Shown here: positions 25,103 to 43,036 of the stretch, piece by piece | Position numbering within the stretch: position 1 is the stretch's first letter | Layout of the letters: each line of letters opens with the position of its first letter | Origin: a virus | IMG/VR virus record: IMGVR_UViG_3300005613_000121 | Span: 1 to 44,598 of that record | DNA: 44,598 nucleotides | Strand: one strand, 5' to 3' | Notes under the pieces: generated by a model | The model's database searches: none | The model's input: the letters and a program-made list of their open reading frames with translations, nothing else | Told to the model about the DNA's origin: nothing | Program-made: the position numbers and the translations under genes

Positions 25103-25292
25103 ACTCGTCTTCCAATTCATCTGAATCATGCCCAGTCGAATCCGGCTGGGCTTTTTTATTGATCCTTGACTTATTCATCTCATCCACAGGCATGTCGTCA
25201 TAACATTGACGGCACATATCCATGTTGACGCCAACCCCCATGTATACTCGATAATATGCAGCGTCTCCACACAAGTAGCACTGGACTGCCAT
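25074..25292 (-). CDS. Small zinc-ribbon protein
   Basis: The start is at 25292 with GGGAGAGAAC before the ATG. Two Cys pairs, CYLCG and CRQCY, flank a short beta stretch (AAYYRVYMGVGVNMDM), giving a treble-clef or rubredoxin-like zinc site in a 72-residue protein with an acidic tail. Small proteins of this type are frequent in phage. Its ATG overlaps the ATG of the divergent terminase gene within the palindrome CATG, and a plus-strand terminator lies inside its coding sequence. Confidence 0.7.
   Translation of the reverse strand: MAVQCYLCGDAAYYRVYMGVGVNMDMCRQCYDDMPVDEMNKSRINKKAQPDSTGHDSDELEDEFTDLDYRED
25130..25157 (+). terminator. Intrinsic terminator inside an opposite-strand gene
   Basis: GCCCAG (25130-25135) pairs with CTGGGC (25146-25151), followed by six T. 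It ends the plus-strand transcript of gene 24578-25102. The same bases code for the C-terminal part of the minus-strand zinc-ribbon gene. Confidence 0.88.
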
Positions 25293-27462
25293 GTTCTCTC
25301 CCGACCAGCTCAAAGCACTGCTGAATACATATCGTCTCAACAAATACGCCACTGCGTCCCAGATCTGCAAAAACACATCACTCAAAAAAGCAGATATCGA
25401 CATTCTCTACACGGACGGCTTTCTGGACAAGGAAGCTGATAAGTACCGGTACAACGACAGGACTGTTCTGGTTCTTGAACAGAACGGATTCACTCTGGAT
25501 GAAGTCGAGCAGGATCAGAAGCAGACAGTACGTCAGCCTACGAAGAAAGAAAAGGAGAAACTCGCCGAAGACCTGGATGTCAGCGTAGGAGAAATCAGTC
25601 TGCTCAACACGGTTGAGGGCCGTCGCCAGGTCAGGTACGCACTGGCCCTGAAGAAGCTTCAGAACGGTGATCCGTTTGACATGGTGAGGCTTCAGTGGCC
25701 GGAGCTTGTTATTCAGGATCCAATCCACCTCAAGTACTTCGCACAGTACTGCGAACGGACAGACAACCTGGATCTCCGCCTTGACGACCGGCAGATCGAC
25801 CTGATCCGCCATACATTCGATGATAGTATCACTCAGATTGGCATTAAAGGATCAACCTCGCCCGGAAAGGGCTTTGCCACAGCAATCGCAATCAACCTGT
25901 ATTACACATCCTTCCCGGATAGTCGTATCGTTTTACTTGGTCCTTCCGTTGCCCACTCCAAGAATGTCATGTTTGCGGAAGTGGCAACCTGGCGTAAGAA
26001 GATGCAGTATCCCGGTGCTGGTGAAATACTCTCACAAAGCATCAAAGATCCGAACGAAGAAAAACATACTCTCTACATTGCCAATCCTGAAACAGGGGAA
26101 GGTCTGTCTGGAGCACACGGTGCGCACGTCATGTATGTTTTTGACGAGTCAAGTTCAGTGGAGGAAGACCTGTTTATCAACTCGCAGAAGCAGGCTGCGA
26201 TTATCATCTGTATTTCCAACCCTCGTGTCCTGTCCGGTTGGTTCTACGACCTCTTTCCGCGTTCCAACCCCAACGATAACCAGACAATCTCAGATAAAGG
26301 TGTGCGGCGAAGGCTTATCACATTTGGGGGAAAGGACTGTATCAATGTAAAAGGGAAGCGACTCCATGTCCCGATTGCACCTGAAGGCGGAATTGAAATT
26401 GAGAACCTGAACGGTGAGAAGTACTTCGCTGCAGAGTACGACAAGATTCCTCTGGAGTGGAGGCCGCATGTTGAGGCTTTGATTCCTGGCCAGATGGACT
26501 ATCGGAAGTACACTCAGATCATGAGTAAGCCCAATCCAATTGAGCGAGCATGGTCTGGCGAAGGGCACTTTCCACCGGAAGATGCGGACCTGCAGGTAAT
26601 CCCACCTTCGTGGCTGAAGAAGCCCTGTGAGGAGTGGGGGAAGAACAAAGACTCTATTCGCGTTACGGCTTTCGGCCTCGACCTTGCTGCGTCTGAAGAC
26701 AAAGACTGGACTGTTCTGTCAGCTGGAGGCCCTGCAGGAGTCAAGGAGCTGTATAAATGCCGAAAGGCCAGTGCAGTCCAGATTCTGTCGTGGCTGAAGG
26801 GCGTGTTCAACCAGATCGGAATTGACCCCTTCTCCGACTACTACCCGATCGCCATCGACTGGCAGGGTGCTGGCGGTCACGTCATTGCCGACCTGCTTGA
26901 GGACAATGGAGCATCGATCGTTCGCGTTATTCCTCAGGGCTCTGCAGAGAACAGGCACCTGTATGTCAACAAGCGAGCTGAGACCTATGGCCAGCTGGGA
27001 GACAGGCTGAATCCAGATTCTGAGCACCTCGACACATTCATGATTCCTGACGACCAGGACCTTCGTGAAGAGCTTGTTGCACACGAGAAGATCTACGCCA
27101 ACGACATGATCCGGTACCGACTGACTCCCAAACAGAAGATCCGAACCGGAGCAGACTCAAAGATCCAAAGCCTGCGAGAGATTCTTGGCAGATCCCCGGA
27201 CTCCGCAGATGCTGTTACACTGTGCTACGAAGCAATCCTTCTCACCATCAACGATGGATTTGTCGCTGAGCAGTTCAATCCGTCAAAGATTGCAGTGACA
27301 GCAGAAGGCAACGAGAAGGACGGATATGCCGTTGGATTTGCTGACGGAAACACTCATGAGATGAATGAGCTTCCATTTGGCTCATCTGTTTCTCTCGTGG
27401 AAATGGAGCGTTCCTTCGAGGAGCAGCTCCGCAAGATCAGAACCTTCGAGGATATCTTCTAA
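25291..27462 (+). CDS. terL: Terminase large subunit (TerL) with N-terminal extension
   Basis: This 723-residue protein has an N-terminal extension (about 1-110) with a helix-turn-helix-like stretch, YATASQICKNTSLKKADIDI. The ATPase domain has a deviant Walker A, GSTSPGKGFATA (187-198), then RIVLLGPSV, and a Walker B MYVFDESSS (281-289). CISNPR at about 307-312 is the coupling-motif region. The C-terminal RNase H-like nuclease has D464 (FGLDLA), D523 (AIDWQGAGG) and D637/D640 (SPDSADA). It would package DNA into the prohead. No small subunit is recognised nearby. No clear ribosome-binding site precedes the ATG, which overlaps the ATG of the minus-strand gene. Confidence 0.9.
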   Translation: MFSPDQLKALLNTYRLNKYATASQICKNTSLKKADIDILYTDGFLDKEADKYRYNDRTVLVLEQNGFTLDEVEQDQKQTVRQPTKKEKEKLAEDLDVSVGEISLLNTVEGRRQVRYALALKKLQNGDPFDMVRLQWPELVIQDPIHLKYFAQYCERTDNLDLRLDDRQIDLIRHTFDDSITQIGIKGSTSPGKGFATAIAINLYYTSFPDSRIVLLGPSVAHSKNVMFAEVATWRKKMQYPGAGEILSQSIKDPNEEKHTLYIANPETGEGLSGAHGAHVMYVFDESSSVEEDLFINSQKQAAIIICISNPRVLSGWFYDLFPRSNPNDNQTISDKGVRRRLITFGGKDCINVKGKRLHVPIAPEGGIEIENLNGEKYFAAEYDKIPLEWRPHVEALIPGQMDYRKYTQIMSKPNPIERAWSGEGHFPPEDADLQVIPPSWLKKPCEEWGKNKDSIRVTAFGLDLAASEDKDWTVLSAGGPAGVKELYKCRKASAVQILSWLKGVFNQIGIDPFSDYYPIAIDWQGAGGHVIADLLEDNGASIVRVIPQGSAENRHLYVNKRAETYGQLGDRLNPDSEHLDTFMIPDDQDLREELVAHEKIYANDMIRYRLTPKQKIRTGADSKIQSLREILGRSPDSADAVTLCYEAILLTINDGFVAEQFNPSKIAVTAEGNEKDGYAVGFADGNTHEMNELPFGSSVSLVEMERSFEEQLRKIRTFEDIF

Positions 27463-31443: not shown

Positions 31444-31648
31444 CAAAAAGTCCTCCAACAGGCTCTTCACTCTCACCGCCAGTAGCGACTACGTCGTCGT
31501 TCTGGACAACCTTGTGTGCCTTTATCGGATTATTGCCAATAACTGCACCGCATTTTGAACACGTCACCCGCTCCCATCCTGGCCGGTCAGGTATAACACT
31601 TCTTTTCCACAGTTCTGGAAAAACGTGCGACTGGCACCTTTCTTTCAT
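31430..31648 (-). CDS. Small zinc-ribbon protein
   Basis: The start at 31648 forms an ATGA overlap with the SWIM-type gene. The 72-residue protein has one Cys-His element near the N-terminus (ERCQSHVFPELW) and CSKCGAVIG further on, with VIPDRPGWERVTC between them. This spacing suits a single zinc site. Similar short proteins with a PDRPGWERxTC segment are common in phage genomes. It may be a small DNA- or protein-binding accessory. Confidence 0.65.
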   Translation of the reverse strand: MKERCQSHVFPELWKRSVIPDRPGWERVTCSKCGAVIGNNPIKAHKVVQNDDVVATGGESEEPVGGLFDGHA

Positions 31649-32100
31649 GCTCCCGGAGCAATAGCCATTTTGCAGGACTTCCCCGTATTCAGCCATTCCT
31701 GGATACCCTTCATATGCTTGCAGAATCCGCCCTGATAGTCTGAAACTACGAACTCGTAATTCGGGCAATCGCAGGTTCGTTTTCTCAGGTGAGTCCAGTA
31801 CTGGTCACTGGTGTAAAGGTTCGTCACCAGGTACAGGCCCGGCTCTTCCGGGTCTTCCTCGATCTGATATGGGACAGGGATGTTATCAGAGTCCCTGATT
31901 CTTACTACTCCACTGCGACCTGTTGGGCCTGAATTCCCAGACTGATCGCTCTGTGGGAGTCCATCATGTGCTGTTCGGTCAGGTGAATTGAGTATTTGTC
32001 CGTCTCGCTGAACTTCCCGTCTGGATTCCTCAGCTTGATCAGATGCTTTCCGAACACCGCCTTCAGAACTGTCCTTCGCTGGTGATACGACGTGAAGCAT
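31645..32100 (-). CDS. SWIM-type zinc-finger protein; start uncertain
   Basis: The C-terminal half has a SWIM finger: RTCDCPNYEF followed by GGFCKHMKGIQEWL, the C-x-C-x(n)-C-x-H pattern. The only ATG in this frame is 32100, which gives a 196-nt overlap with the glycosyltransferase gene and a low-complexity first half. No GTG or TTG was found between that gene's stop (31905) and the start of the conserved part. The true start may therefore be 32100 or a rare codon near 31900. SWIM domains bind DNA or proteins, for example in recombination factors. Confidence 0.6.
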   Translation of the reverse strand: MLHVVSPAKDSSEGGVRKASDQAEESRREVQRDGQILNSPDRTAHDGLPQSDQSGNSGPTGRSGVVRIRDSDNIPVPYQIEEDPEEPGLYLVTNLYTSDQYWTHLRKRTCDCPNYEFVVSDYQGGFCKHMKGIQEWLNTGKSCKMAIAPGA

Positions 32101-33167: not shown

Positions 33168-33240
33168 GTGCCATTCCCATCACAAGTAACAAGAACCCGC
33201 CGCAGGCAATCGCCTCGCAGAGCCTGTCTACGATTTTCAT
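33010..33240 (-). CDS. Small protein with one N-terminal membrane helix
   Basis: ATG 33240 forms an ATGA overlap with the upstream gene and has GGAGA before it. The first 25 residues (IVDRLCEAIACGGFLLLVMGMAHG) are a membrane helix or signal sequence. From about residue 25 the gene overlaps 32673-33167 by 158 nt in the +1 phase, and the remaining sequence is basic and poorly defined. The ribosome-binding site and hydrophobic start make it likely to be expressed; the extent of a functional C-terminus is unclear. Confidence 0.45.
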   Translation of the reverse strand: MKIVDRLCEAIACGGFLLLVMGMAHGNDISNTDNVDSVHNVRVREPVPAQEVHRSRGVGRAGGFLQAWRWPLGQSD

Positions 33241-33710
33241 ATCTTCTCCGGAAGAAGATTCATGAGATTTCTGACGATCCTCTCTTTGATGCACGATTGG
33301 CCCAATGCAAACTTGGCAATTTCAGCAACTGTTCTTTCTGTCTCCTCGCCCAATGCACTGAAGCTCTCTGACTCAGAGTCCAAAGCCAGGTCGACTGCCT
33401 TTCGGATAATCTCTTCCCGGGGAATCTCAGGTGCAAGCCTCAAATCCATTAAGCCCTGTTCTTCTTTAGTCAGAGACGAGTACCAGTTGGTGACTCTGCC
33501 CCTGTTGTTCTTGTTGTAGCAAAATGAGAAAGTTATAAAATCGTCCTGATGAACCCCTCTCTTTTCGCACCACGATAAAAGCTCGGGGATGGCGTTAGTA
33601 GCGTCATATGTTTGCGAATATATCTCGTTCCCTTCAATCTCATCTACAACAACAGTGACGCCACATTTAGTGTTCAGTACGTCGCCTACTTTAATCTTGC
33701 TCAAGTCCAT
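33237..33710 (-). CDS. Paralog family member 1 (SH3-like N-terminus, helical C-terminus)
   Basis: Start at 33710 with GGAGATC upstream and a 20-nt overlap with the next paralog. The N-terminus DLSKIKVGDVLNTKCGVTVVVDEI matches the family opening (x-VGK-x-Y-x4-G-x-L-x-x-V). The end has PREEIIRKAVDLALDSES and TVAEIAKFALGQS, matching the family's C-terminal helices. The middle is divergent. Family relatives in this window are at 33691, 34879, 35352, 35846, 36910 and 38977. Function unknown; an SH3-like nucleic-acid- or protein-binding barrel is an inference. Confidence 0.6.
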   Translation of the reverse strand: MDLSKIKVGDVLNTKCGVTVVVDEIEGNEIYSQTYDATNAIPELLSWCEKRGVHQDDFITFSFCYNKNNRGRVTNWYSSLTKEEQGLMDLRLAPEIPREEIIRKAVDLALDSESESFSALGEETERTVAEIAKFALGQSCIKERIVRNLMNLLPEKI

Positions 33711-34209
33711 TGCAGATCTCCTGTGCGTATTTAACGGCATCGAATTGCTTCATCGTCGCGACGACCTGGTCGAGGAACGGCTCCAGTCGGTACGTTGCTG
33801 CTTTCTGTGCAGGACCTATTAGTCGCACACTCCTGGCGTCTTTTTCTGGCGCGAGTGCATTCAGGCTGAATTCGAGAGATTTTCGCAGTATTTGCTCTGG
33901 CGTTGCATTGTGCGAAGCGCTTGGAATGCCTTCAGGCCCAGGAGCCTCGATATCTGTTAGCTTAAGCGGCAGCCTGTATTTATCGTCAAACTCTGACCCG
34001 ACAAACTCACCATTGATACTATAGCTCCACAGGCCATCAGCGAGAGAGACATTCCATACGCTCTGCACCCATTTATCGAGACGGGCGAATTCGTCACGAT
34101 CGCATTGGCCAACGTGAAGATGGGCGGACAGGCTCCATCCATCTACAATCTCCGCAACCAAACCGCAGTTGGTCATGTAGTATTTGCCGTCTTCCCATTT
34201 TTCAGTCAT
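33691..34209 (-). CDS. Paralog family member 2
   Basis: AAGGAA precedes ATG 34209. The opening KWEDGKYYMTNCGLVAEIVD fits the family N-terminus. EQILRKSLEFSLNALAPE and LEPFLDQVVATMKQF near the end fit its C-terminal helices. A roughly 60-residue middle region (HLHVGQCDRDEFARLDKWVQ and on) is not shared with the others. It directly follows the RNase HI gene and overlaps family member 1 by 20 nt. Confidence 0.55.
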   Translation of the reverse strand: MTEKWEDGKYYMTNCGLVAEIVDGWSLSAHLHVGQCDRDEFARLDKWVQSVWNVSLADGLWSYSINGEFVGSEFDDKYRLPLKLTDIEAPGPEGIPSASHNATPEQILRKSLEFSLNALAPEKDARSVRLIGPAQKAATYRLEPFLDQVVATMKQFDAVKYAQEICNGLEQD

Positions 34210-34217
34210 GATATTCC

Positions 34218-34877
34218 TTAGCAGTTTTGAGATTCGTCTGATGCTATTCGATCGCAGAATTCATTCATCGGATCGCCGTTGTGGCCTCTGACCCAGAGGA
34301 ACGAGACAGAGTCGTGGAATCGAGTGAGTTCCATGACTCTCTTCCACAGTTCAGGATTCTTGACAGGGTTTCCGTGGACTGAACGCTTCCAGTTATTCGT
34401 TTCCCATTTGTACATCCACGACTGGGACCCTTTCACGCAGTATTGGCTGTCTGACACAATGGTCAGGTTTGTTGGCGTGCTGAAATGCTCCATCGCCTCA
34501 ACAATAGCAGTAAGCTCCATGCGATTGTTGGTTGTATCGGCGGTTCGACCTTTGCCATGGATGATGTGCCCATCTTTGTCGTGATAGGCCCATGCCCATC
34601 CTCCGCATCCATTGTGCCTGCACGACCCGTCCGTGTAGACAACCGTTGAGTGTCCAGCTTTTTCGCGTTTGGGTTGTACAGCCTTTTTCCGACCGCTTCT
34701 GCTGATACCTTTGCCGACCTGCCCGCGCTTCTTCTTGCTTCCTCGGGCCCCTGACTTCTTGACAGGCTTGCGCACTTCAACATCGATATCCCTGCCGCAG
34801 TTTCCACACTCTCCGTGGTCGGCCTCGTCTCCTGAAACTCGCTGATAGCAGTACGGGCATCGCAGTCCTGTTGCCAT
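34218..34877 (-). CDS. rnhA: Ribonuclease HI with N-terminal zinc ribbon and basic linker
   Basis: The start is taken at 34877 (MATGLRCPYCYQ). Residues 7-28 form a four-Cys zinc ribbon (CPYC, CGNC), and 34-75 are a Lys/Arg-rich linker. The RNase H fold begins at about 78: D83 (YTDGSCRHNG), E121 (NNRMELTAI), D143 (VSDSQYCVKG), then H199 (WVRGHNGDP) and D209 (FCDRIA) complete the catalytic set. It degrades RNA in RNA-DNA hybrids, for example primers or R-loops. The zinc ribbon plus basic linker probably adds hybrid or DNA binding. A longer start at 34916 is possible but unsupported. Confidence 0.9.
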   Translation of the reverse strand: MATGLRCPYCYQRVSGDEADHGECGNCGRDIDVEVRKPVKKSGARGSKKKRGQVGKGISRSGRKKAVQPKREKAGHSTVVYTDGSCRHNGCGGWAWAYHDKDGHIIHGKGRTADTTNNRMELTAIVEAMEHFSTPTNLTIVSDSQYCVKGSQSWMYKWETNNWKRSVHGNPVKNPELWKRVMELTRFHDSVSFLWVRGHNGDPMNEFCDRIASDESQNC

Positions 34878-34878
34878 G

Positions 34879-35349
34879 TTATTTCCCCAGGATACATCGA
34901 GACAAAGAGGGTTCATTAACGATGAAGTTGCAGATCTTGTCTGTCACCTCTGACACGCTACCTGTCGCATGCAGGGTATCGTCCTGCACGTGCATAGCAC
35001 TCAAGAGCGACATCTCCACTGCTTTCTTCAATACATCCATCTCTGTGACGCCAGTAGGCGTGGAGTCAAATCCAGCCAGAGACATCTCTTCAGGAGTAAT
35101 ATTGTACTTTTCGATCTCCTCCGGACCCGGCCTTACTGGAACAGGATCAAGATTAGCCCTGGGAACATCATCTTCGTTATCGCCGAAATACCCCTCAGCA
35201 GTGTAATTTCTACTATGTCGTCTGTCCCAGAGTGACACTGCTACAATAGGCTGCCGTATATTGCCATGACGATGTGGACTGTCTGTGTCTGTAACTCTAT
35301 ACAAGTCTCCGTCATTGTTACGGTAGAACTTATGCAATTCCAACTTCAT
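34879..35349 (-). CDS. Paralog family member 3
   Basis: ATG 35349 has AAGGGG 8 nt upstream; GTG 35355 overlapping the previous stop is an alternative. The opening KLELHKFYRNNDGDLYRVTD is the family signature. The middle, GYFGDNEDDVPRANLDPV and EEIEKYNI, is matched closely by GHYGEEQDDYPRSNLSPF and EEIAEFNL in member 7, showing true common descent. The C-terminus has DVLKKAVEMSLLSAM and VTDKICNFIVNE. It lies 1 nt from RNase HI. Confidence 0.62.
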   Translation of the reverse strand: MKLELHKFYRNNDGDLYRVTDTDSPHRHGNIRQPIVAVSLWDRRHSRNYTAEGYFGDNEDDVPRANLDPVPVRPGPEEIEKYNITPEEMSLAGFDSTPTGVTEMDVLKKAVEMSLLSAMHVQDDTLHATGSVSEVTDKICNFIVNEPSLSRCILGK

Positions 35350-35351
35350 TG

Positions 35352-35849
35352 TCACGCCCCTTCCATAACAGCGTCCAGAGCTTCGTTATTGAGTATAGAC
35401 ATCACCGTATCGGCGAATTCCCCTGGGATATCCACTCCCAATTTCTCCGCAGAAAGCCTGATGGCCATCTCCAGAATGTCTTTCCTGTTGACGTTCGTCT
35501 GCAGTTTGAACCCGGCACCTTCTACCGGATTACCTTTCTCGTCACATTCCATTACTAATTGCATTTTACACAGAGGCCCCCTGCTTTTGGGCAATGTATG
35601 GTGCCCGTCTGAAAAGTGACGCCATACATCTCCAATGTATTCGTTATGTTCATTGTCTTCTGGTGTCTGTACACACTCTACTCTATGAGTTCTACTGAAG
35701 CCATCCCCGCCATTTTCAAGCCGCTCTATCACTTTGTATATTCCGCCCCGTCGATCGAGGTACACTTTTCCAACCTCGATTTTCCAGTTGGGGCCCGGCT
35801 CATATGTTCTGAGCCGTTCTCTGAATTCCTCGGTCATATTCTGCGTCAT
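35352..35849 (-). CDS. Paralog family member 4
   Basis: ATG 35849 overlaps the previous stop as ATGA. After a 20-residue helical leader the family opening appears (KIEVGKVYLDRRGGIYKVIER). The middle includes EYIGDVWRHFSDGHHTLPKS, and the end RKDILEMAIRLSAEKLG and EFADTVMSILNNEAL fits the C-terminal helices. It is coupled to family members 3 and 5 on either side. Confidence 0.62.
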   Translation of the reverse strand: MTQNMTEEFRERLRTYEPGPNWKIEVGKVYLDRRGGIYKVIERLENGGDGFSRTHRVECVQTPEDNEHNEYIGDVWRHFSDGHHTLPKSRGPLCKMQLVMECDEKGNPVEGAGFKLQTNVNRKDILEMAIRLSAEKLGVDIPGEFADTVMSILNNEALDAVMEGA

Positions 35850-36250
35850 TTCAATTTCGCCTCAATTTCCTGTGCAGTATTGGAATCCATTATCGACACG
35901 CATTCATGTGCCAGCATTCTTAGAAACACTGCGTCAGCAGGAACGTCCGGCATTGCTATCTTCTTCCATGCCAGCTGAAGGCACATGGCCAGCTTGTGGT
36001 CAAGCGTAACAGAAGGTGAAGGACTTTGGTTGCCGACCACTGAAACCAGATCGTAAGAGGTTCCACTGCTTAACGAATTCCATAACGACCCATCTTCTTT
36101 GTACTCATATAGGCAATTTAGCTTGTTGGAACGAGGATCATCAGACAGCTCAATGCACCGTGCGTCGAAGCGTCCAGTATCTGAGATACCTGTCACTCGA
36201 AACAGCGACCCAGTCCCATCCTTGTACACTTTACCGACTTCAAGTTTCAT
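35846..36250 (-). CDS. Paralog family member 5
   Basis: The start is set at ATG 36250, which shares a base with the preceding stop (TAATG) and puts the family opening MKLEVGKVYKDGTGSLFRVT at the very N-terminus. The C-terminal helices are LAMCLQLAWKKIAMPDV and ADAVFLRMLAHECVSIM. It is shorter than the others, with a compact middle. The frame stays open to 36325 upstream, but that part is in another gene. Confidence 0.62.
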   Translation of the reverse strand: MKLEVGKVYKDGTGSLFRVTGISDTGRFDARCIELSDDPRSNKLNCLYEYKEDGSLWNSLSSGTSYDLVSVVGNQSPSPSVTLDHKLAMCLQLAWKKIAMPDVPADAVFLRMLAHECVSIMDSNTAQEIEAKLK

Positions 36251-36465
36251 TATGCCTCCGGGAACAGATGCTCCTGCAGTGATCGAAAATCGCCCTTCGA
36301 GAACTCTTCCTTCGAGAATGAGCACAGCCTCAACAGGCTTCCATAATCTGCGTCGTGCAGGCTGCGAAGGATGAGGCGTCGGCTAATCGACGTGTCCTCC
36401 AGGTTCGCTTCCTGCAAGAGCTTTCCGATCCTGTCTCCACTGGTGTCTGACTTCTCGAATGACAT
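36250..36465 (-). CDS. Small hypothetical helical protein
   Basis: Read from ATG 36465 (MSFEKSDTSGDRIGKLLQEA), giving 71 residues; a start at 36498 is possible. It is helical throughout (SRRLILRSLHDADYGSLLRL, FRSLQEHLF). It overlaps the preceding gene by 83 nt in the +1 phase and abuts paralog 5. No family recognised. Confidence 0.5.
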   Translation of the reverse strand: MSFEKSDTSGDRIGKLLQEANLEDTSISRRLILRSLHDADYGSLLRLCSFSKEEFSKGDFRSLQEHLFPEA

Positions 36466-36913
36466 GTGTTTCTTTCCCTGTGTATTCGGGGCTTCCATTC
36501 AATGCGATTGAGCGCCAATCAGCACAAATCTGATCAGCTTCCGACTCTGTAACATGGAACAGATTCACCAGATAGTCAATATTTCGGCCATGACAGACAA
36601 TCGACAGTTCTTCTATGAGAGCTTCAGTAAGAGTTTCGATTCCTCCCAGCATTGACACACACAGTGCAAGATAATCGTACGCCGGGTGTTTTCCAGACTT
36701 GTACAATGTTGCTATCGGGGCTTTTTTCATCTCGCTGTTGGTAAGTGGATTCCGGTCATTATCTATTATCTGGATGTGAAGAGTCTTCTCTTTCTCATCG
36801 TACTGCCAGTTTCCTGCCCACTTATATGGCGTCGCGTTGAACAGCTCGATCCTGTCAAACGGAAAGTCCGACGACACTGTTCCGGTAAACTTCTCTCCAG
36901 CCCGTACTGTCAT
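36383..36913 (-). CDS. Hypothetical protein
   Basis: ATG 36913 overlaps the stop of paralog 6 as ATGA. The first 50 residues are beta-rich (GEKFTGTVSSDFPFDRIELF, KTLHIQIIDNDR). The rest is helical (DYLALCVSMLGGIETLTEALI, IDYLVNLFHVTESEADQICADW). The last 25 residues lie in the overlap with 36250-36465. It does not carry the paralog-family opening, though it sits between members 5 and 6. Function unknown. Confidence 0.55.
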   Translation of the reverse strand: MTVRAGEKFTGTVSSDFPFDRIELFNATPYKWAGNWQYDEKEKTLHIQIIDNDRNPLTNSEMKKAPIATLYKSGKHPAYDYLALCVSMLGGIETLTEALIEELSIVCHGRNIDYLVNLFHVTESEADQICADWRSIALNGSPEYTGKETHVIREVRHQWRQDRKALAGSEPGGHVD

Positions 36914-37308
36914 GAGATCACCTTTTCTTTGAGCGTAATTTCATGAGTGCCTTGAAGCAGTGATATACACATCTCTGCTGTTTCCTCGGCACCCTCTGGT
37001 CCAGTCACACTGCTGATGGCCAGCTCTAATGCCTTCTTCAGATACTGGGACTCTGGAAGAGGCGGAACTGGCCCAGTGTACTCCTCTTTAATGGCGAAAC
37101 CTTCGCCGTGGTCATTGCAAAATGACCCATCAGGTGCATGACGGAACTTTGCGCCTGCCGTCGATCCCCCTGGTTCTTTGGGGTTTCTACAGTAAACAGT
37201 CTCCATTACCAGCGGGGTGTCACCGGCTTCAATATCAATCAGCTTCACGATTGTGCCAAAGTAGTCGACATACATTTTGCCGACTTCAAAGTTAATCTTC
37301 TGTGCCAT
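36910..37308 (-). CDS. Paralog family member 6
   Basis: GGAGGA lies 8 nt before ATG 37308, which overlaps the end of the Bcs1-like gene by 17 nt. The opening NFEVGKMYVDYFGTIVKLID is the family signature. SQYLKKALELAISSVTGPEG and ETAEMCISLLQG are the C-terminal helices. The middle holds a CRNPKEPGGS segment. It is translated in tandem with the AAA ATPase, which is the clearest functional link any family member has. Confidence 0.62.
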   Translation of the reverse strand: MAQKINFEVGKMYVDYFGTIVKLIDIEAGDTPLVMETVYCRNPKEPGGSTAGAKFRHAPDGSFCNDHGEGFAIKEEYTGPVPPLPESQYLKKALELAISSVTGPEGAEETAEMCISLLQGTHEITLKEKVIS

Positions 37309-38581
37309 TGCTCAGTCCTCCGGTAAGTGGTTTTTGCAGTTCCTGCACGAGAACATCAGGCTGCGACAGGTTCTGCAGTGCCATTCCCTGGAACTGGGCA
37401 GGGGTGACGCCCTCGGCTATTTCCCATTCGGGGTCCAACCTGAAGTCTGGCCAGAATCGATTGAACATCTCGTGAGCCGTTTCATTTGTCAGGCATCCCA
37501 TTTCGACAACGATGTCGCACCGCCCAGGCCGACGCAAGGCCGGATCGAGGTGATCGAGGTGATTGGTCGTCATTATCAGGATTCGTCCATGCGAGGCAAC
37601 AACTCCGTCAATCGCGTTCAGGAGCCCGGATAAGGTCAGTGTTTCTTTCCTGTCTTTGTCGCTCCCGTCCTCACGGCTCTCAGCAGCTTCGAATGTGTCA
37701 ATATCCTCAATCAGGACGACTGATTCACTGTCCAATTCGGATAATGCAGTCAGCAAAGAGGAGTCGGTCATTCCTGCAAGGCTCAGGATGTGAAGCTTCT
37801 TCTTGAAGTGGCTGCACAGGGCCAGTGCCATAGAAGACTTACCAGTACCTGGGACTCCGTGGATCGCGATCCCCATGCGGTAGGGAATTCCGCATGTCTG
37901 GTACCAGTCTTTTCGACTGACGAAGTTCTCGATGGAGTTGATGAGCTTTTGTTTGACCTCGTCAATCGCCACCACAGTGTCCATATGCCGAACCGGCTGC
38001 CTCTTTGCATCACCCCATCCGAAGTGGCTGTATCTAATAATGGAGATGCTCTCGTCGTCAGTGTGGCTATCGTCCAGCTGTTCCAGGAGCCTTCTCAGCT
38101 TGCCCTGTCGGAACCCCAGAGTCTTGATCTCGATGTACTCTTTGACGCTGGTTCCATCCCCTTTTCCGTCTCTCTCATAACGGGACATCCTGTAGGGCCA
38201 GCCGCGATGCCAGAAGGTGAAGGAGCCATATCCAGGAGATATGGTCACCTCTTCTTCGTCGTAGCGCCCGTTATTGGCCCTCAGTGTTCGGGCTTTCTCT
38301 GAGTATCCCTTCTGGTGGAACCACTTCATTGCGTGGAAGAACAGCGGACAGTCGTTATTGATATTGACTGTTACGGTCAGGTATCGATTCAGGAGCCGCA
38401 GAATGTCATTGGGTACGCTGCGCGCCCAGTAGGACAAAACGCCCAGTACCCAGACACCAATGACGCCCCCTACGACCGGATTATCCTTCGTCCACGATGT
38501 GAATTCTTTTGCAAACAGCTGGATGTCTTCGGTAGGCAGTGAGTCCAGCATTGACTTAGCCGATTCCAGTATTTCGTTCAT
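37292..38581 (-). CDS. Bcs1-like AAA+ ATPase
   Basis: This 429-residue protein has an N-terminal membrane helix (about 36-54, VVGGVIGVWVLGVLSYW), then a Bcs1-specific-type domain (about 60-200) containing YLTVTVNINN, a beta-rich GSFTFWHRGWPYRMSRYERD and YIEIKTLGFRQGKLRRLLEQ. The AAA module has GVPGTGKSS (242-250, Walker A), SVVLIEDIDTF (287-297, Walker B), IMTTNHLDHLDPALRRPGRCD (sensor 1 and arginine fingers, about 336-356, read in two parts). The order is the same as in mitochondrial Bcs1, a translocase of a folded Fe-S protein. The phage role is unknown; it would be anchored in the host inner membrane. Confidence 0.85.
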   Translation of the reverse strand: MNEILESAKSMLDSLPTEDIQLFAKEFTSWTKDNPVVGGVIGVWVLGVLSYWARSVPNDILRLLNRYLTVTVNINNDCPLFFHAMKWFHQKGYSEKARTLRANNGRYDEEEVTISPGYGSFTFWHRGWPYRMSRYERDGKGDGTSVKEYIEIKTLGFRQGKLRRLLEQLDDSHTDDESISIIRYSHFGWGDAKRQPVRHMDTVVAIDEVKQKLINSIENFVSRKDWYQTCGIPYRMGIAIHGVPGTGKSSMALALCSHFKKKLHILSLAGMTDSSLLTALSELDSESVVLIEDIDTFEAAESREDGSDKDRKETLTLSGLLNAIDGVVASHGRILIMTTNHLDHLDPALRRPGRCDIVVEMGCLTNETAHEMFNRFWPDFRLDPEWEIAEGVTPAQFQGMALQNLSQPDVLVQELQKPLTGGLSNGTED

Positions 38582-38597
38582 TGAATTCTCCGGTTCG

Positions 38598-38614
38598 CGT
38601 TGGGGTTATTTATC
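38598..38614 (-). repeat. 17-bp leader repeat, copy 1
   Basis: CGTTGGGGTTATTTATC is identical here and at 38969-38985. On the minus strand each copy covers the end of a gene (GATAAATAA includes the stop codon) and the beginning of the leader of the next gene. Confidence 0.8.
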
Positions 38615-38953
38615 GTCCAGTGCCATTTCTGCGGCCTCAATCAAGTGCATTCCAAAAACCTGATTGCCATCTCGCACAACAACATCTGCGAGCCACCGCA
38701 TAGATCCTGTTTCTTTCAGCCTCATGATCCACTGAGCCTCCGGCAGCGACATCTTCTCGTCCGGCCATGTCAATCGCAGCATTCCGAACAGCCCTGCGAA
38801 CCCTTCTGGAAGCTCACCGGCAGCATGCTTCTTCTCCCACTCGGGACAGGTATCCATCTCTGGGAGAAGAGAAAAGGCACGCTCTGGGGTCAAAGACGAA
38901 GGCCGATTTGCGATCGCTTCGTCTTCATTCTCAAACGGTTCATACTGTGTCAT
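38606..38953 (-). CDS. Hypothetical protein
   Basis: AAGGAT precedes ATG 38953. The 115-residue protein has an acidic N-terminus (YEPFENEDEAIANR), a middle with WEKKHAAGELPEGFAGLFG and a helical C-terminal half (EAQWIMRLKETGSMRWLADV, HLIEAAEMALDD). No membrane segments, and no clear link to the paralog family except its location. Function unknown. Confidence 0.55.
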   Translation of the reverse strand: MTQYEPFENEDEAIANRPSSLTPERAFSLLPEMDTCPEWEKKHAAGELPEGFAGLFGMLRLTWPDEKMSLPEAQWIMRLKETGSMRWLADVVVRDGNQVFGMHLIEAAEMALDDK

Positions 38954-38968
38954 GTAACTTATCCTTCA

Positions 38969-38985
38969 CGTTGGGGTTATTTATC
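38969..38985 (-). repeat. 17-bp leader repeat, copy 2
   Basis: Second exact copy of CGTTGGGGTTATTTATC, overlapping the stop codon of paralog 7 and the leader of gene 38606-38953. A related TTAACCCC...TGAAGGAG leader lies before the gene starting at 44153. Confidence 0.8.
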
Positions 38986-39579
38986 CAGATTGTTGCCTAC
39001 GATCATTTCCGAGAGCACGCTGGCAAATTCATCAGGATTGTTGGGATCGTACTTAGGCAGGCACAGCTTCACGGCAGTTGTGACCTGCTGTACTCGACTG
39101 GCCACCGGAGACTCATCTGCCAAGTTGAATTCCGCAATCTCTTCTGCTGTCGGCGAGACTTCAAATGGGCTCAGGTTTGACCTTGGATAATCATCCTGTT
39201 CTTCCCCATAGTGCCCTTTGGAGGAAAACCACGTGTCTGGGAGTCCGGGTTGCCCATGACTGTACCTGGTCCCTATGATGGCATTTTTCGTTGACTCAGA
39301 TCCGAATCCAGTGACTTTGACAAGAACTCCTGAGCCCGTTCTGTAGTACTTACCAACCTGAAATCCTGCCTGGTTTTTCGTGGTCTCACCTGCAGTCGCC
39401 TCTTGAGTCTCAGGCTCCAGCTCATTCTCTCTGAGACACCAGTCCGCTTTGCCATTTGTGCATCTGTAATCACCGACCCCTGCATTGCATTTGACAATCG
39501 TCACTACCTCTCCTACGGAAAACCCGTGTCCATACTTCCGGGCTGTGACGCGGACTCTATTTCCAACTGGGTACTTCAT
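38977..39579 (-). CDS. Paralog family member 7, with an extra N-terminal barrel
   Basis: ATG 39579 overlaps the previous stop as ATGA. Residues 1-55 are an additional KOW/SH3-like segment (VGNRVRVTARKYGHGFSVGE, VVTIVKC). The family opening comes only at about residue 73 (GFQVGKYYRTGSGVLVKVTG), followed by the middle shared with member 3 (GHYGEEQDDYPRSNLSPF) and C-terminal helices (QQVTTAVKLCLPKYD, EFASVLSEMIVGNN). The doubled barrel supports an SH3/KOW-type nature for the family. Confidence 0.62.
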   Translation of the reverse strand: MKYPVGNRVRVTARKYGHGFSVGEVVTIVKCNAGVGDYRCTNGKADWCLRENELEPETQEATAGETTKNQAGFQVGKYYRTGSGVLVKVTGFGSESTKNAIIGTRYSHGQPGLPDTWFSSKGHYGEEQDDYPRSNLSPFEVSPTAEEIAEFNLADESPVASRVQQVTTAVKLCLPKYDPNNPDEFASVLSEMIVGNNLDK

Positions 39580-40289: not shown

Positions 40290-40874
40290 CTAAAGATCAC
40301 CAATACGAACTAAGGCATCACGTCGATAGCATTTCGGGCATCGCGATGGCTTTTTCTTACGATTTCTATGCTTAACCGATTGCTGACAATGGCTGCATCG
40401 GTATCTGCCCTCTTTCGGGCACTTCTTGCGCTTTTTCTTCACCTGAGGTTTCTCTGCCCGACGAGGCTTCGGCTTCTTTGGGGTCTTGGATGTGAAAGCA
40501 GAAAACTTCCTCGACACAATGAGCCTGGAGTAATCTTTGAGGTTGGATCGGCAGATTGTCGCCAAAGCCTCATTCGCTCCTGTCAGAGGCCTCTTCTCCC
40601 CAGAGGAGTAAAACTCAGCAGAGTGATGACATGCCTGGCATACAGGAACAAGGCACTCAAGAGTCCTGCCTTCCAGGGTGTTCCGGTCGTAAGCAGTGTG
40701 ATGAACCTGGTCAGCAGGCCTGGAACAGGCCACGCACTCTGGACTACCGAAGAGGACAAGACTCCTTATCCTGGACCAAAGCGCTGAGGACAGGTACTCC
40801 TTGTAGTCTGAGTACCCCATTTGTCTGAGGTTATAGTTCCTGCCAGCGTAGGTGTATTCTACTGGAGTCTGCAT
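40290..40874 (-). CDS. HNH endonuclease with C-terminal zinc ribbon
   Basis: The start is placed at ATG 40874, just after the stop of the paralogous HNH gene. CVACSRPADQVHHTAYD and LVPVCQACHHSAEF form the HNH/zinc core (Cys pairs plus the catalytic His). A basic linker leads to CSHCQQSV and CPKCYRR, a second zinc ribbon. Tandem similarity to the next gene upstream indicates duplication. Such enzymes in phage are packaging-associated or free-standing homing nucleases; its position near tRNA-like sequences suits a mobile type, but that is inference. Confidence 0.8.
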   Translation of the reverse strand: MQTPVEYTYAGRNYNLRQMGYSDYKEYLSSALWSRIRSLVLFGSPECVACSRPADQVHHTAYDRNTLEGRTLECLVPVCQACHHSAEFYSSGEKRPLTGANEALATICRSNLKDYSRLIVSRKFSAFTSKTPKKPKPRRAEKPQVKKKRKKCPKEGRYRCSHCQQSVKHRNRKKKPSRCPKCYRRDALVRIGDL

Positions 40875-40878
40875 GGAA

Positions 40879-41490
40879 TTACCGAACAGCCTTGCCAAGA
40901 ATCATTCGTATCGTGTTCATTGGAAGATCATACTTGCGAGACAGTTTTCGCATGGACATCCCGTGTCTTCCGGGGCCGAACTGCTTGTTGATCGCACGGC
41001 GAACTGATCTTGTCGTCCTGTTGAATGCTGACCGGGCTTCCTCTTGCCTCTCATACTTTCGACGTTCGCGACCCTCTCTTCTCTCTGAGGGCCCCTGAAT
41101 CCCGAGCTTACGGTTTGCCTGGAGCTTATGCGACCTGACTTCGTCAGGAAACTCCGCAGACTCATGGCACGATCTACAAACAGGATGGAGGTGCGTAAGG
41201 TCCGATCCAACCAGGGTTCTCATGTCGTATGAAGCATGGTGTATCTGGGTAGCGTATGCCTGACATGAGATGCAGGTTCGCCCTTTCTCTTCAAAAGCCA
41301 TTTCGCGAACTACAGGCCAGATATCGCCGTTCGGGTAATGCCAGTAGGACTCATATCCCAGAGACTTCAGGCTCTTATTGCGCTCCTCATAGCCATGCTT
41401 ACTGATAGTGTCCTGCTTAGGTCTACGCTTAGTCTTTCTTCTTATGCCCTTTCTTGTACAGACGATGCTCTTACTCTTGTACTTAGCCAC
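40879..41490 (-). CDS. HNH endonuclease with C-terminal helix-turn-helix
   Basis: CISCQAYATQIHHASYD and LHPVCRSCHESAEF are the HNH core, parallel to the neighbouring gene. The N-terminal 30 residues are strongly basic. The C-terminus MSMRKLSRKYDLPMNTIRMIL is a helix-turn-helix, giving a DNA-recognition module that the sister gene replaced with a zinc ribbon. Both look intact. The gene lies right at the edge of the tRNA/non-coding region. Confidence 0.8.
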   Translation of the reverse strand: MAKYKSKSIVCTRKGIRRKTKRRPKQDTISKHGYEERNKSLKSLGYESYWHYPNGDIWPVVREMAFEEKGRTCISCQAYATQIHHASYDMRTLVGSDLTHLHPVCRSCHESAEFPDEVRSHKLQANRKLGIQGPSERREGRERRKYERQEEARSAFNRTTRSVRRAINKQFGPGRHGMSMRKLSRKYDLPMNTIRMILGKAVR

Positions 41491-42655: not shown

Positions 42656-43036
42656 TTAGGCTGGAATTTTCTCAATCAACTCAAATCCTTTGGACTTGAT
42701 CCTGGTCTCCACCATCAGCCGATCGACGTATGCGGGTTCCCATTCGCCCATCAGCTCCTCGGGATGCCCGTCAAAAGACGACGTCTTGTCGGTAACGTTG
42801 TATTTTCGCTTCCGGCATTCCTCTAAGAGTCTGATGTACCGGTCTCTCAGGTAGCCGAGCTTGTCGTAGAAGAAACGTACATGCCCCTCTCCGAGAGAGA
42901 ATCGATCGGGCAGGTTGTTCAGGTTGGCCTTTCCAGATCTGATCGCGTTGGGGATGCGGGTTATCTCGCGTTGCTCAGCGATCAGCAGCTTTCCCGGTAG
43001 TTCCTCTGGGTCAATTCCTACGTTGATTCGTGTCAT
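42656..43036 (-). CDS. denV: Pyrimidine-dimer DNA glycosylase/AP lyase (T4 endonuclease V type)
   Basis: The N-terminus MTRIN, then LIAEQREITRIPNAIRSGKA and LGEGHVRFFYDKLGYLR follow T4 endonuclease V residue by residue, including the catalytic Thr directly after the initiator Met and the catalytic Glu (E24 here). RLLEECRKRKYNV also matches. At 126 residues it is close to the 138 of T4; the C-terminus after about residue 90 is more divergent. The enzyme excises UV-induced pyrimidine dimers and cuts the abasic strand. The ATG is at 43036, just after a possible small ORF. Confidence 0.92.
   Translation of the reverse strand: MTRINVGIDPEELPGKLLIAEQREITRIPNAIRSGKANLNNLPDRFSLGEGHVRFFYDKLGYLRDRYIRLLEECRKRKYNVTDKTSSFDGHPEELMGEWEPAYVDRLMVETRIKSKGFELIEKIPA

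Follow-up and report, generated by a model that had tools for sequence, protein, structure and literature searches.

In EBPR siphovirus 2, the protein gp25 begins with the same N-terminal domain as several of the small proteins described here (tblastn 1e-5, with a consensus query), but runs on into a dATP/dGTP diphosphohydrolase domain (2.9e-36), whereas the proteins of the present locus end in a short helical tail. The gp25 gene (locus L215, 4001–4675) adjoins ThyX. Four PHROGs that are annotated without a function (phrog_22518, phrog_23578, phrog_285 and phrog_4317) match this domain in other carriers with E values from 1e-6 to 0.0075, and none of them matches a protein of the locus directly. 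The first hairpin of DUF4222 (PF13973) is found in one of these outside carriers (1.8e-4) and, weakly, in the consensus of the locus (0.05); as the match covers residues 5–28 only and the consensus reaches 13.6 bits against a curated cut-off of 27, we rejected DUF4222 as the identity of the family. Two further small phage proteins bear comparison with respect to fold: YorP of Bacillus phage SPbeta (PDB 2heq), discussed below, and, likened by analogy only, MotB of T4, an early protein whose N-terminal domain is predicted to be KOW/SH3-like (PMC7827196).

The window analysed here is an entire IMG/VR virus record (IMGVR_UViG_3300005613_000121; 44,598 bases), which may be a fragment of the virus. 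Its minus-strand block at 33.2–39.6 kb consists of seven small genes, designated M1 to M7, together with genes for an RNase HI (34218–34880; PF00075, 6e-38; the listed open reading frame runs to 34916) and a BCS1-like AAA ATPase (37292–38581; BCS1_N 7e-18, AAA 4e-19, phrog_7485 1e-98), both of which the initial annotation had named correctly. All seven open frames are present on the minus strand, and a simple pattern test detected a Shine-Dalgarno-like sequence upstream of each; better starts are ATG 33710 for M1, ATG 35349 for M3 and ATG 36250 for M5.

The virus has only distant relatives. A megablast search of the window against 50,697 phage records gave no match, relatives of the ATPase are remote (about 30% identity), and the terminase large subunit (25291–27462, plus strand) found a single weak tblastn match in the same 50,697 records, with no relatives confirmed in viral contigs. 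Searches for relatives with single proteins (P0003, P0008, P0007 and the terminase) returned nothing useful, and no ortholog set of the seven members was found in the phage-record and single-protein searches. Elsewhere on the minus strand, a gene at 42656–43036 matches phrog_1183, an endonuclease V/N-glycosylase UV repair enzyme (2e-29), the small protein encoded at 31645–32100 has a SWIM zinc finger (1.5e-4, over the Pfam cut-off), and an adjacent gene pair at 40290–41490, perhaps another diverged pair, has weak matches of the HNH endonuclease or terminase-small-subunit type. The spacer sequence AATAACCCCAACG(C/T)GAA occurs in exactly two copies, both on the minus strand, one before the ATPase gene (38594–38610) and the other before the gene upstream of it (38965–38981); as many matches at three or fewer mismatches were seen in none of 100 shuffles.

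As judged by sequence comparison, the seven genes are a paralog family, present as distantly related copies in one gene block. Pairwise similarity among the members is weak, with just 17–27% identity to M3, and pairwise comparison is by itself insufficient to reveal the family; the exception is the pair M3 and M7 (phmmer 3e-11 in the seven-sequence set), which the initial annotation had rightly singled out as closer to each other than other pairs. However, the similarity extends past this pair. When leave-one-out profiles were scored against 10,500 shuffled sequences and all 629 six-frame open reading frames (about 11,000 sequences), they recovered M4 (5e-6), M7 (3e-5), M3 (6e-5), M5 (1e-4), M6 (4e-4) and M2 (4e-3), with the best non-member at 0.3–1, and missed M1.

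A second control, which avoids the weakness of shuffles, used 52 real proteins of the window as background and 20,000 random seven-protein sets. Mean member-to-member scores exceeded those of all 20,000 sets, whether computed for the N-terminal 30 residues, the middle region, the C-terminal 60 residues or the full length. All seven members scored above every one of the 52 non-members on full-length and N-terminal scores, and five of the seven did so on the C-terminal 60 residues; the N-terminal test is favoured, as all member segments were begun at the motif, while the C-terminal 60 residues are independent of that choice. The weakest member is M1 (157 aa; 33237–33710), whose support comes only from this comparison with real window proteins, where its full-length, N-terminal and C-terminal scores are all higher than those of the 52 non-members.

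The N-terminal motif ascribed to all seven members holds for six of them: a pattern of this kind matched these six and no other among the 629 open reading frames, but M3 (ELHKFY) departs from it. Similarly, the proposed likeness of the C-terminal helices is real, in that it surpasses all random sets, yet weak, since it sets apart only five of the seven members and the profile alone is not significant for most of them. Searches of Pfam and PHROGs gave chance-level matches only, except for phrog_10201 at the N-terminus of M7, and detected no catalytic domain in any member. A literature search retrieved nothing on this family, and a match of the family profile to dynein intermediate chain in a PDB sequence search (0.06) was rejected as chance.

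Beyond the window, sequence comparison indicates that five of the members, M3 to M7, carry a widespread phage domain that is without a Pfam family of its own (consensus MKLEVGKKYKTRNGEKVEIV...YTEDGKYY...DLIEEW). A DNA pattern for MK-x-EVGK-x-Y identified 115 stretches in viral contigs, where one or two would be expected by chance according to our own estimate, which assumes about 5e10 bases in the collection; many of these stretches encode short proteins, or fusions, that start with a recognisable domain. The initial annotation had proposed looking for the family in other phages, and the domain is indeed present there: a profile grown from outside sequences alone comprised 100 domains from 82 viral loci (consensus MKLEVGKKYKTRNGEKVEIVKDENDSTYPFIGEDDNGESASYTEDGKYYSGEESDYDLIEEW), and the remaining open reading frames of the window scored against it at shuffle level. 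A separate search with 18 outside sequences matched exactly M3 to M7 in the window.

Among the members, M5 (134 aa; 35846–36250) matches the wider domain best; it scored 1e-8 over the full domain with the 100-domain profile and 1e-9 with the 18 sequences; its domain (36032–36250) is followed by three predicted helices at about 35852–36004. M4 (165 aa; 35352–35849) gave 1e-4 and 1e-5 with the two profiles, respectively, M3 (156 aa from ATG 35349; 34879–35349) 6e-6 and 1e-4, M6 (132 aa; 36910–37308) 5e-4 and 0.010, and M7 (200 aa; 38977–39579) 0.015 and 0.0036. Neither of the two other members matched the 100-domain profile significantly: M2 (172 aa; 33691–34209) was borderline for the wider domain at 0.55, and M1 was not listed. 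Because the outside set was picked by motif, the first nine positions of these matches agree by construction. Once the profile had been cut back by its first ten positions, M5 still ranked first of about 11,000 sequences at 0.019 and M3 sixth at 0.76, while all other members were lost, and a small motif-stripped set failed to connect the wider domain with the middle region.

Carriers of the domain in GenBank include, besides EBPR siphovirus 2, Escherichia phage 2G7b, Synechococcus phage S-CBWM1 and phages of Paracoccus, Lentibacter and Stenotrophomonas; where annotated, the domain protein is called hypothetical. Such an abundance of the domain in phages would fit a history of separate acquisitions, each copy coming from this pool and not from duplication in place, as would the low identity of the members to M3 and a domain tree in which no window clade is resolved. 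We nevertheless consider this history unlikely. Similarity among the members in the middle and C-terminal regions is greater than in any of the random sets, and the helical tail, which matched none of the 91 outside carriers, looks special to this phage lineage on sequence comparison. Furthermore, a tree keeping the six tested members together was not rejected (p-AU 0.535), and the tree resolves neither a window clade nor the absence of one. We thus infer an origin of the seven genes by local duplication.

Multiple copies of the domain are found in other phages as well. Among 50 virus records, chosen in nearly every case for the presence of the motif, 45 matched, and 13 of these 45 hold at least two copies. 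One 42-kb record (G049) contains ten copies, partly in adjacent small genes and partly in a tandem chain of four within one 271-residue protein; these lie within a stretch of about 8 kb (locus L212, 4410–5225 and 11107–12318). In gp51 of Synechococcus phage S-CBWM1 (locus L216, 4974–5876), a 300-residue protein, three tandem copies can be made out by eye. Arrays of diverged copies are thus no peculiarity of this virus.

Anti-defence or host-takeover roles are common among the small accessory genes of phages, and the presence of seven strongly diverged small copies in a single strand block had suggested an arms race or multi-target binding, in which each copy would block a different host factor and the set would be kept diverse. 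To us this appears improbable, although no more so than recruitment of the copies one by one: no member matches a known defence or anti-defence family in Pfam or PHROGs, the fusion of the same domain to nucleotide enzymes in other phages (see below) indicates another role, and, given the arrays elsewhere, it is simpler to suppose that a common module was duplicated in the ordinary way.

The initial annotation had described the members as a beta domain followed by helices and had assigned the former to an SH3/KOW-like barrel. The first of these statements agrees with an AlphaFold2 model of M5, built from 51 aligned sequences (mean pLDDT 81.5, with about 90 over residues 1–30), which has five strands (residues 8–11, 16–22, 28–33, 47–50 and 68–71) followed by three helices. 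When this model was compared with predicted viral proteins using Foldseek, three phage proteins matched at E < 0.001, the two best of which, with 70 and 84 residues, gave TM scores on the target of 0.80 and 0.65. Against the PDB, there was no match at 0.001 (best E 0.083), and at this non-significant level the matches include KOW, Tudor and SH3 proteins (RfaH, RapA, intersectin and TDRD2), but also avidins. An SH3/KOW/Tudor-like barrel is therefore the likely class of the modelled domain and is to be read as a class only: the five strands of the model speak for the assignment, and the PDB comparison falls short of confirming it.

M7 differs from the other members in its layout, with an extra N-terminal SH3-like domain (about 39412–39579) preceding the family domain (about 39187–39360) and the helices. 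The extra barrel-like domain had already been noted in the initial annotation, and we recovered it as a match of residues 1–56 to phrog_10201 (1.7e-11). The model of M7, built from seven sequences, is of low confidence; its top PDB match is YorP (Foldseek E 8e-3), a likeness that we would assign to the extra N-terminal domain.

We also considered whether the family has a special link to the BCS1-like ATPase, as the translational linkage of M6 to the ATPase gene had suggested. Phage BCS1 has been proposed, from a comparison of jumbo phages, to help in membrane-proximal virion assembly (PMC7824862). If the seven proteins were substrate adaptors of this ATPase, M6 being made together with it, the adjacency of the two genes, which overlap by 17 bases, would be explained, and M5 has a weak fold resemblance to HspQ, a Lon specificity factor, albeit at chance level (E 1.9). 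However, overlaps occur between at least six pairs of neighbouring genes in the block, which makes that of M6 with the ATPase gene an ordinary one, and five members sit farther from the ATPase gene. Nor do copies of the family accompany similar ATPases elsewhere: none of 89 loci encoding BCS1-like or related AAA proteins has a copy of the family or domain within 8 kb, and among 50 whole records examined for this link, only two contained any match at E ≤ 0.1. In one of the two, the match is a frame of about 550–560 residues (locus L092, 409–2061) lying about 46 kb from the BCS1-like ATPase, in which by eye an SH3-like stretch precedes the domain, an order like that in M7. The suggested link is thus not supported; in the loci compared here, the BCS1-like ATPase is outside the usual context of the family, and we regard the adaptor explanation as very improbable, far more so than an arms race.

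A different set of partners is suggested by the fusions in which the domain occurs. Elsewhere it is joined to dATP/dGTP diphosphohydrolase (dGTP_diPhyd_N, as in gp25), MazG, DUF6378, DUF3310 and an AAA_33 P-loop domain, the last in the ten-copy record (locus L212, 5232–5927). DUF3310 is presumably related to the gene 1.7 nucleotide kinase of T7. Such fusions are few (four of the 45 scanned carriers, and gp25), but most of them point one way, to a module that would bind either the enzymes of nucleotide or DNA metabolism or what these enzymes act on.

We thus favour, with about even confidence, a reading in which all seven genes derive from a widespread phage domain as local copies that have diverged strongly, their products acting as non-catalytic binding modules, probably for partners in nucleotide or DNA metabolism. 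The unit would be a five-stranded barrel-like domain of about 62 residues, joined here to a C-terminal helical tail. Docking would involve both the SH3/KOW/Tudor-like barrel and the tail, and divergence in loops and tails may have directed the copies to different partners, which would most likely be enzymes that work in DNA or nucleotide metabolism, or the substrates of those enzymes. Such partners could be enzymes of the phage or of its host, or defences of the host. The seven copies would then be free-standing counterparts of the domain that is found fused in other phages. Of this proposal, the family membership, the wider domain and the arrays and fusions elsewhere are directly shown and the succession of strands and helices is predicted, while the barrel class, the binding role, the kind of partner and the local origin are inferred.

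More tentatively, and with much less confidence than in the reading just given, the domain may serve phages as a general docking module by which dNTP-processing and DNA enzymes are recruited or regulated. It would do so as their fusion partner or in free arrays, where each copy would act on a different step of infection; the array of the window, which has a helical tail of its own, would be an expanded, unfused version. What seemed an isolated cluster of paralogs is now joined to a domain that is widespread in phages, is without a Pfam family of its own and is split among several PHROGs. A testable hint of its role comes from the MazG-type, dATP/dGTP diphosphohydrolase and P-loop domains to which it is fused elsewhere, and with its multi-copy arrays it is well suited to the question of what leads phages to retain many diverged versions of a single small fold.
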